Assembly: GCA_003281365.1 (NCBI GenBank)
Contig: QCCF01000012.1
Location: 1 to 38,176, forward strand
Direction: 5' to 3'
DNA from: Prochlorococcus sp. AG-347-K18
GTDB lineage: Bacteria; Cyanobacteriota; Cyanobacteriia; PCC-6307; Cyanobiaceae
Length of the DNA stretch: 38,176 bases
Below the pieces are notes generated by a model. It was not told the origin of the DNA, made no database searches, and was given only the letters and a program-made list of their open reading frames with translations. Shown one piece after another: positions 29,133 to 30,250 of this stretch (position 1 is the stretch's first letter; each line of letters opens with the position of its first letter). Made by a program: the position numbers and the translations under genes.

Positions 29133-29330
29133 TTGAGTAATTCTGATTTTGATAAAAATGGATTTGATAGCTATGGAATACATTGGCTTCAATATGCTGC
29201 TTTTGCTGTCTCTGGTTTTGCTATATTTACAACCTGGGCATTTTTTTATGATGAAAGATTCCACAACTTTGTAATGTATATTTTCAGGGTTATTAACTGC
29301 AGTGGGTTCAACTGCAATGGAGCACTTTAA
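29133..29330 (+). CDS. Membrane protein, probably frameshifted at the 3' end
   Basis: TTG start, 65 residues. A polar start (SNSDFDKNGFDSYG) and a clear hydrophobic helix (LQYAAFAVSGFAIFTTWAFF) precede YDERFHNFVMYIF. From there the frame gives a poor tail (RVINCSGFNCNGAL), while the neighbouring frame continues as SGLLTAVGSTAMEHFKIL, a second helix-like segment ending in TAA at 29365-29367. The shift falls at a run of four T residues (29281-29284); one T fewer would join the frames. A mutation, a sequencing error or a programmed shift could explain this. The joined protein would overlap the next gene by 31 bases. Family not recognised. Confidence 0.5.
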   Translation: MSNSDFDKNGFDSYGIHWLQYAAFAVSGFAIFTTWAFFYDERFHNFVMYIFRVINCSGFNCNGAL

Positions 29331-29336
29331 AATTCT

Positions 29337-29519
29337 ATGGCTAATCCAGATCAAAAAACAATATTAATTGATAATGCTTTTGAGGAAATAAAAAACATTT
29401 GTATAAATCTTCAAAAAGATACTGATGCTTCGAATTCAGAACTTAAAAGTTTACTAAAACTAATTATCAATGAATGGGAAGAAAAAGAAGAACAAAAAAC
29501 TGGTTTTGGGTTCAGGTAA
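29337..29519 (+). CDS. 60-residue acidic helical hypothetical protein
   Basis: A two-helix polar protein (ILIDNAFEEIKNICINLQKD and LKSLLKLIINEWEEKEEQK), no membrane segment, one Cys. ATG start. It closely follows, or overlaps, the probable frameshifted gene. Function not recognised. The 115 bases between its stop and the terminator at 29635 hold nothing recognised. Confidence 0.6.
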   Translation: MANPDQKTILIDNAFEEIKNICINLQKDTDASNSELKSLLKLIINEWEEKEEQKTGFGFR

Positions 29520-29634
29520 AGTTAGCCATTATCTAAGAAGAGACTTAGGCCTTAAATCATTTTAATATGAACAGACTTTTTTACTTTTAAAATTTATTAT
29601 TTACAATTTAGATTTTTTAGAAAGAAATTAAAAA

Positions 29635-29664
29635 GGAATGAATCTCAAATAGAGGATTCATTCC
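29635..29664 (-). terminator. Strong terminator of a short minus-strand transcript
   Basis: GGAATGAATC pairs with GATTCATTCC (10 bp, 10-base loop), and on the minus strand five T residues follow. It lies 26 bases after the stop of a 13-codon frame, so it appears to define a very short transcript. Confidence 0.8.
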
Positions 29665-29690
29665 AGATTTAGCATTAGTTTTGTTTAGAT

Positions 29691-29732
29691 TTAAATTTTA
29701 TAATTAAACTCCTCTGGTGGACTGCCAATCAT
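29691..29732 (-). CDS. Candidate 13-residue peptide with a strong ribosome binding site
   Basis: ATG preceded by AGGAGGGATCTA encodes MIGSPPEEFNYKI and a stop, then a strong terminator. The AGGAGG is better than at most genes here. It could be a functional small peptide or a leader inside a regulatory RNA. An upstream inverted repeat (29749-29776) may be part of its 5' region. No family is recognised, and the size is at the limit of what can be called. Confidence 0.4.
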   Translation of the reverse strand: MIGSPPEEFNYKI

Positions 29733-29748
29733 TAGATCCCTCCTATTC

Positions 29749-29776
29749 AACAAGTTAAACCTACGCTTTACTTGTT
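29749..29776. repeat. Inverted repeat AACAAGT/ACTTGTT
   Basis: A 7-bp inverted repeat with a 14-base centre, upstream of the 13-residue frame. It could be an operator or a 5' hairpin of that transcript. Confidence 0.35.
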
Positions 29777-29784
29777 AAGAAAGT

Positions 29785-29806
29785 AAATCAGTAAAAATAC
29801 TGATTT
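29785..29806. terminator. Terminator-like hairpin between small genes
   Basis: AAATCAGTA and TACTGATTT form a 9-bp stem with a 4-base loop. It lies 9 bases downstream of the 33-residue minus-strand gene. T-rich DNA follows on the plus strand (ATTATTTT). It is probably the terminator of that gene and may act in both directions. Confidence 0.55.
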
Positions 29807-29814
29807 ATTATTTT

Positions 29815-29916
29815 CTAAAATGTTTGAATTAAAGAAGCTAATTCTGGTGCATCTAATAAAAGTGCAAAAAATGTAAGCACAACTAATAAAAAAATGGAAA
29901 AGTAGAATTGAATCAT
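29815..29916 (-). CDS. 33-residue single-helix membrane microprotein
   Basis: Encodes MIQFYFSIFLLVVLTFFALL, one helix, then LDAPELASLIQTF, a short amphipathic tail. ATG start with a weak ribosome binding site. A hairpin follows its stop. Upstream is an A/T hairpin (29928-29949) of unclear purpose. Family unknown. Confidence 0.55.
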   Translation of the reverse strand: MIQFYFSIFLLVVLTFFALLLDAPELASLIQTF

Positions 29917-30016
29917 ACTTAAAAATTACTTAAAAAGAATTTTTTAAGTTGTATAAAATAATGCTTTGTTTACATAATTAAATATCGCAACCTAGAGAAG
30001 TTTAATTAGAGAATAA

Positions 30017-30250
30017 TTAAGATGCTTCAGGAGAAAAAATCGTCCTATTTTTTTGCCAATATTCACAACCTTTAAGTAAATGATCCCCCTGAGGTATACG
30101 TTTTTCGTATTTTGGACAGATCAAGATAGTAGCAAAAGTTTCTGTAGTGCTGTAGCGAAAGTGATTGCAAGTAATACAAATCTTTGTTCGTTTTCGTTTT
30201 AGGGTAGATTCTTTTAGATATTCCCATTTTGACGGATTTGCCTTGATCAT
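30017..30250 (-). CDS. 77-residue Cys-rich small protein
   Basis: Contains CITCNHF, ICPKYEK and GCEYW: four cysteines plus a histidine that could bind a metal such as zinc or form a small iron-sulfur site. A basic N-terminus (KESTLKRKRTK) precedes it. The start ATG lies 2 bases after the DUF1651-like gene, so the two form an operon. A longer overlapping frame in another phase is a shadow. Confidence 0.65.
   Translation of the reverse strand: MIKANPSKWEYLKESTLKRKRTKICITCNHFRYSTTETFATILICPKYEKRIPQGDHLLKGCEYWQKNRTIFSPEAS

Follow-up and report, generated by a model that had tools for sequence, protein, structure and literature searches.

A conserved Yfr11-type gene of Prochlorococcus with a candidate micropeptide frame common to several small RNAs

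The locus described here lies on the minus strand of contig QCCF01000012.1 from Prochlorococcus sp. AG-347-K18 (assembly GCA_003281365.1), whose whole analyzed stretch of 38,176 nucleotides is referred to below as the window. It combines a strong Shine-Dalgarno (SD) sequence, a 13-codon open reading frame (ORF), and an intrinsic terminator, preceded by a dyad that resembles a promoter box (Table 1). Read on the minus strand, AGGAGGG occupies positions 29744–29738, the ATG starts at 29732, and the TAA stop codon lies at 29693–29691; the arms of the terminator stem, GGAATGAATC and GATTCATTCC, fall within 29664–29635 and are followed by TTTTT. The original prediction for this DNA had named an SD sequence, a 13-codon frame, and a 10-bp stem with a T-tract on this strand, and all of them are present. 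Its 13-residue ORF is MIGSPPEEFNYKI, of which the quoted peptide, GSPPEEFNYKI, makes up only the last 11 residues. An alternative start codon, TTG at 29753, lies upstream of the predicted transcript.

GGAGG followed by an ATG frame of 8 to 20 codons and by a perfectly paired stem, 8 bp or longer, with a T-tract occurs once in the window, at this locus, and the full combination was found in none of 200 dinucleotide shuffles of the window. Without the terminator, GGAGG with a short frame is at chance level (two seen, 1.5 expected). A simple terminator scan of positions 29400–30100 listed no site, probably because the scan allows loops of 3 to 8 nt and the loop here measures 10 nt.

Table 1. Features of the window locus.
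Feature	Positions	Strand	Basis or remark
Dyad promoter box AAATCAGTATTTTTACTGATTTAC	29783..29806	-	AAATCNG-N8-CNGATTT type; putative operator
Inverted repeat	29747..29778	-	overlaps the putative promoter; RNA structure unsupported
Putative −10 element TAGGTT	29758..29763	-	TAnGTT conserved in class A (alignment columns 58–63); spacing from mapped Yfr11/Yfr16 5′ ends
Predicted transcript of ~122 nt, class A, divergent member of the Yfr11 family	29630..29751	-	RF02363 match
Shine-Dalgarno GGAGGG	29738..29743	-	8 nt from the predicted transcript start
Micro-ORF MIGSPPEEFNYKI, 13 codons + TAA	29691..29732	-	ORF and class A comparison
Class-specific stretch of the 3′ untranslated region	29669..29690	-	alignment columns 131–152, nearly invariant in class A
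Intrinsic terminator, 10-bp stem, 10-nt loop, T-tract	29630..29664	-	stem pairing in the class A alignment

The locus, which we call class A, is widespread in the genus. A 171-nt unit was recovered near full length at 80 to 100% identity in 127 of 200 genus genomes, the source genome included, and as a partial match in 5 further genomes of this set, many members of which are incomplete. Public contigs carrying the class A core bear Prochlorococcus or uncultured Synechococcaceae titles (among the matches listed, 80 of at least 118). The commonest class A peptides read MIDSPPEEL[N/D]YKI; the window copy begins with MIGSPPE and thus carries the substitution D3G. At two positions of the class-specific 3′ untranslated region (UTR) the source genome deviates from most of class A, and at box position 29799 most other class A genomes have C.

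Comparison with Rfam placed the locus next to two known small RNAs. The covariance model RF02363 matched the window over model positions 1 to 144 (29628–29751, 35.7 bits, E = 4.6e-4), a full-length match whose score lies below the gathering score of 44, so that the window copy falls outside the family by that cut-off. Several of its class A orthologues score above 44 (G080, 48.9; G130, 45.8; G053, 44.7; locus L038 of G182, 48.2). When 20 class A loci were compared with Rfam, 18 gave full-model matches, two of them above the cut-off, and several reached only E values of 0.01 to 0.13. A genome search with RF02363 matched 115 of 151 genus genomes, 35 of them over the cut-off; three class A loci pass it. 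No match was found in 14 control genomes.

Weak additional DNA matches led to the GGAGG and ATG core on the minus strand of genome G015, taken as strain MED4, at 358714–358746 and 657489–657521, where RF02363 matches 358606–358754 and 657391–657529. In the published passages, MED4 Yfr11 is complement(358606..358754) and Yfr16 is complement(657392..657529), both supported by Northern hybridization and 5′ rapid amplification of cDNA ends (RACE) (Steglich et al. 2008, PMC2518516). Since the Rfam model and the published MED4 places coincide, the two core loci of G015 can be firmly identified as Yfr11 and Yfr16. The MED4 Yfr16 region also contains relatives of the sequence around the window locus, in scrambled order. 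The distance from the mapped 5′ end to GGAGG is 8 nt in Yfr11 and Yfr16 and 9 nt in Yfr8; the Yfr11/Yfr16 spacing, carried over to the window, puts the predicted transcript start at 29751.

The window locus thus shares with Yfr11 and Yfr16 a full covariance-model match, the start relative to GGAGG, a box 40 to 41 nt before GGAG, the micro-ORF start, and the terminator at the end, and Yfr16 itself lies among relatives of window genes. It differs in the distinct 3′ part of class A, in an SD-to-ATG gap of 6 rather than 8 nt, and in its score below the gathering cut-off. The passages seen of the original description list a Yfr11/Yfr16 homologue in MIT9515 only (PMC2518516); judged by the matches above, class A widens the family to many more high-light genomes. 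Conservation, the Rfam match, and relatives that coincide with RNAs mapped by Northern hybridization and RACE all speak for the complete miniature gene that had been proposed here, and we consider it highly probable that the locus is a transcribed gene of the Yfr11 type. A tandem pair of Yfr11-family copies, with starts ~400 nt apart, was seen in one genome (G100:C20:750-898 and 1155-1304).

The inverted repeat that the original prediction placed within this gene is present (approximately 29778–29747). Given a start at 29751, however, most of it lies upstream of the transcript and on the conserved TAnGTT, so that it is more likely a part of the promoter than of the RNA. RNA structure was also considered as the cause of class A conservation and rejected. 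This analysis used an alignment of 106 of 111 thinned class A sequences, drawn from 146 distinct ones; L032–L035, which carry an insert, and the shorter L036 were left out. In these 106 sequences, 97% of the cells of the terminator helix are paired, and so are 86.9% of those of the inverted repeat, where one pair is unpaired in 68 of the 106 sequences; covariation beyond shuffles was found in neither. The RNAalifold consensus of class A adds a small hairpin at GGAGG, made almost solely of unvarying pairs.

The same core recurs at loci outside class A. We define the group by GGAGG, a gap of 5 to 11 nt, ATG, a start resembling MID-x-(P/L)-P-E, and a stop within 18 codons; the window copy, with its D3G, belongs to it. 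Six classes were distinguished, all with GGAGG and ATG: A, the window type; B, Yfr16; C, Yfr11; D, Yfr8; and the unnamed E and F. Class D (GGAGGCAATCTAAATGATTGATAGTCCGCCTGAAATTTAG, MIDSPPEI) was found in 392 family genomes with a pattern that left the wobble positions free. In MED4, the class D copy begins at 339961, which is 9 nt into Yfr8 (339952..340241); two class D loci correspond to Yfr8/9 in Rfam. The same pattern and genomes yielded class E (mostly MIDTPPEYQIEAN) in seven genomes of 1.5 to 2.0 Mb from six other genera, and no match in the other 33 genera. Class F (MIDSLPEISE) was found in the source genome by a DNA search with class D as the query. Its locus there (L361, C5:69412-69722, minus strand) gave no Rfam match at gathering score, and the MED4 counterpart (979808–980111) reads MIDSLPAISE. 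The source genome therefore holds copies of A, D (MIDNPPEI), and F.

Judged by DNA similarity, class D is present in 78 and class F in 80 of 87 genus genomes that are at least 90% complete. In a pattern search of 60 genomes with a completeness of 95% or more, 58 had at least one core copy. A reversed-pattern control gave no matches in the sets of 200, 392, and 60 genomes. Stop codons fall within 18 codons in 216 of 221 distinct frames, and 198 of these frames have 8 to 13 codons. Outside the core, B and C were the only classes seen to resemble each other, with A weakly similar to them; the common denominator of the six classes is therefore the box, GGAGG, and the start of the frame. Yfr8 (RF02360, the Yfr8/9 pair) has the MIDSPPEI frame, the dyad box, and GGAGG 9 nt from its mapped 5′ end but reaches up to 290 nt, overlaps antisense Yfr9, has a frame of only 8 codons, and shows no noticed similarity in the remaining RNA. 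Two other relationships were tried and rejected. Classes E and F as one orthologous locus had a 20-nt exact flank match at one E locus and none at a second. For a phage origin, the class A/B/C pattern was found in no viral contigs; a looser pattern gave seven viral matches (L383–L389), proteins of 71 to 82 residues with a MID[SR]PPE[FY] start and a CxCGM motif, which are apparently unrelated to the micro-ORF.

A dyad of the form AAATCNG-N8-CNGATTT precedes GGAG in every class. Allowing three mismatches, it was present in 242 of 245 distinct upstream regions and lay 40 to 43 nt from GGAG in 240 of them, compared with averages of 18 and 1 of 244 shuffled upstream regions for presence and correct spacing; the window dyad (29783–29806) has this spacing as well. 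These counts, like those of start codons and SD spacing below, mix loci found by DNA search, by Rfam, and by pattern. The dyad is mostly exact in classes A and D and poorest in class F (two to three mismatches), and, counted from the start sites mapped for Yfr8, Yfr11, and Yfr16, it covers approximately −54 to −31. Within the window, only 29783–29806 matched, as overlapping hits on both strands (up to three mismatches; 0.26 expected by chance). At one Yfr8 locus (L489, G095:C7), the center of the box is inverted (GGTAAATATGCC for GGCATATTTACC), which is permissible for a symmetric binding site.

In MED4, exact dyads occur in three places, before Yfr8, Yfr19, and an ORF of 50 to 60 residues, and dyads with one mismatch in five further places, one of which is Yfr11. 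The Yfr19 box (L512) lies at approximately 1086193–1086216, and the RF02366 match starts ~30 nt after it. Yfr19 thus has the same dyad box without GGAGG and the MIDSPPE frame, and it is reported to respond to light and 3-(3,4-dichlorophenyl)-1,1-dimethylurea (DCMU) as Yfr11 does. According to passages of Steglich et al. (PMC2518516), both RNAs are lowered by light and raised by DCMU, and Yfr16 follows the same trend. We infer that the dyad box may drive this response. Weighing against a single operator of this kind, the one-mismatch box search has a background (0 to 5 matches per genome for the reversed pattern versus 10 to 17 for the real one, both strands), the Yfr16 box carries more than one mismatch, and Yfr8 is reported as constitutive during phage infection, with no light response of Yfr8 given in the passages seen (PMC2518516).

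As to the regulator, several candidates were compared with the dyad. The sites of NtcA and RpaB do not fit it. PedR was rejected, its motif RWWTRGGYNNYY, as given in the passages seen (PMC13421787), being unlike the dyad.

Some further observations concern the surroundings of these boxes. The dyad box of the window also appears as a hairpin just past an ORF at 29815–29916 on the minus strand, which encodes a membrane-like product of 33 residues (MIQFYFSIFLLVVLTFFALLLDAPELASLIQTF), adjoins the box upstream, and was matched by neither Pfam nor NCBIfam up to E 0.1. The conserved, uncharacterized ORF of 50 to 60 residues (MKSxxxWLSKMxESMANAFMHPLKNxLPPxIG...), preceded by the box AATCAGCATAAAGACTGATTT at loci L516, L520, L522, and L523, also follows a one-mismatch box in the source genome (L536, from base 440); against Pfam and NCBIfam it reached no cut-off, with only a weak sub-threshold Pfam match. 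Elsewhere, the window holds 6S RNA and Yfr17, as expected for a high-light Prochlorococcus.

Whether the frame is translated was approached through its conservation, which the original prediction had proposed to compare with that of the RNA structure. The ATG is kept in 219 of 221 distinct members (A, 122/123; B, 32/33; C, 23/23; D, 22/22; E, 7/7; F, 13/13); class A comprises 123 distinct sequences by the shorter key of this count and 149 in the conservation alignment. GGAG stands 5 to 11 nt before ATG in 244 of 245 distinct upstream regions, so the gap varies while both of its ends are kept, which fits translation. Also in favor of translation, the majority sequences of the classes disagree at each of the six third positions in codons 2 to 7, though at Ser4 (Thr in class E) and Pro5 (Leu in class F) as well. 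ATG, SD sequence, and terminator helix are kept; covariation shows no excess, and conservation of the 3′ UTR equals that of the frame. The two alternatives named at the outset, a micropeptide or a regulatory RNA with a coding part, were the right pair, the kept ATG and SD sequence fitting translation and the conserved, class-specific 3′ part fitting an RNA role.

A number of observations count against a selected peptide. Within classes, codons 2 to 7 show 13 synonymous and 24 nonsynonymous changes (P = 0.04 to 0.22, depending on the assumed transition bias), and third positions account for 19 of 40 changes (P = 0.044, with variants treated as independent). The class A 3′ UTR at 29690–29669 is as conserved as the frame, class A frames run from 8 to 29 codons, some of them through frameshifts, and ATG has become ATT in one class A copy and ACG in one class B copy. 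Residues 3 and 4 vary in class D (MIESPPEI, MIDNPPEI, MIDDPPEI, MIDRPPEI, and MIDIPPEI), and Pro-Pro is not universal, since class F reads MIDSLPE. Some predicted folds pair the CCnCC of the frame with GGAGG, and the RNA level may thus account for some of the conservation. Last, the patterns for A, B, and C demanded GGAGG and ATG, and the initial D and E patterns also fixed amino acids; members gathered in this way bias the counts of GGAGG, ATG, and residues. On balance, translation of the frame is likely, and selection on the peptide besides an RNA role appears to be the best reading, though an unproven one.

The conserved 3′ UTR is also the starting point of a competing explanation, in which the transcript is a purely regulatory small RNA with little or no translation, and GGAGG, AUG, and CCnCC form a hairpin or a base-pairing seed. 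That GGAGG is largely paired when classes D, E, and F are folded by prediction agrees with this, as do the 5′ part of Yfr8, which folds better than 99% of shuffles, and the weak synonymous signal. Such an RNA would not, however, readily account for GGAGG and ATG being kept despite the changing gap between them; among the six class representatives, five have a 5′ part that folds no better than its shuffles, and class A lacks a covariation excess. We hold this explanation to be unlikely, though less so than the two that follow. As pairing targets of the class A RNA, hli mRNAs were tried and rejected: with a single shuffle applied to all ends, z was −1.2 for 40 distinct hli ends and −0.2 for 200 ends of other genes. 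In one genome, an hli 3′ end (L058, G123:C10:15600-15628) is closely complementary to the class A RNA (query 94–123).

Translation might instead matter while the peptide does not, with ribosome occupancy, perhaps through slow passage over Pro-Pro-Glu, shielding or exposing the RNA and so setting its stability or pairing. Pro-Pro-Glu is a motif of the slowly translated type, and Pro-Pro occurs in the majority of every class but F, behind a very strong SD sequence near the 5′ end; the decay values in the published passages (Yfr16, more than 20 min; Yfr8, 19.7 min; Yfr11, 4.8 min) also suit such a role. It is made improbable by the Leu-Pro of class F, by Met-Ile being kept as well as Pro-Pro, and by the lack of a gene downstream on which control in cis could act. 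The last point bears equally on a leader peptide with an attenuator, which a short frame followed by a terminator resembles: the next plausible downstream ORFs (29337–29519 and 29133–29330) are on the plus strand, the sole minus-strand ORF of 60 codons there is a TTG-started overlap of these, and the unit recurs in classes with differing surroundings. Because no same-strand gene follows closely, we regard attenuation as very improbable.

Overall, we consider it reasonably probable, from sequence comparison, that the locus specifies a transcript under light or redox control, from which a micropeptide is made and which may have a role as RNA as well. A putative regulator sensing light or photosynthetic electron flow would act through the dyad, centered near −43. 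By homology, transcription from the dyad promoter would begin 8 nt before GGAGG and stop at the hairpin, giving an RNA of ~122 nt. Ribosomes would bind the strong SD sequence and make the 13-residue peptide, in which function may reside in the first seven residues (MIDSPPE in most relatives). The variable tail of the frame, the near-invariant 3′ UTR, and the terminator would point to an added role at the RNA level, and hence a dual-function transcript would be expected. In this combination of a short frame with an RNA role, it would resemble SgrS/SgrT and SR1; the peptides of those systems, according to the passages seen, have 43 and 39 residues, whereas the present ones mostly have 8 to 13 and a putative function.

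More tentatively, and with somewhat less than an even chance in our estimate, Yfr8, Yfr11, Yfr16, the window locus, and the two unnamed classes would form one multicopy family of micropeptides of 8 to 13 residues with a MIDSPPE start. Its members would occur throughout the high-light genus and in some genomes from six further genera, and a single dyad operator responsive to light or redox state would switch all of them, along with Yfr19, as a unit.

Yfr11, Yfr16, and Yfr8 are already known as RNAs, and the gene is real, conserved, and partly described. The string MIDSPPE was not found in the open-access literature searched. A 2014 transcriptome paper on MED4 and MIT9313 may have noted these frames. 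In the parts seen of open-access papers on Yfr RNAs, small proteins, and dual function (including PMC7368042, PMC5126843, and PMC5607370), we recognized no peptide assigned to Yfr8, Yfr11, or Yfr16, and the passages seen of Steglich et al. (PMC2518516) discuss peptide frames for Yfr6 and Yfr9 only. As far as the open-access literature searched shows, three things are new: the micro-ORF common to Yfr8, Yfr11, and Yfr16, the third class (A) with its wide distribution, and the box held in common with Yfr19.

Prochlorococcus has very few regulatory proteins and many small RNAs, most of them unexplained. If the proposed family is real, it would, to our knowledge, be among the shortest conserved gene families of bacteria. 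Three RNAs would then be mRNAs for one micropeptide under one operator, their light response would gain a common, testable cause, and the list of noncoding RNAs of a very abundant phototroph would need revision.
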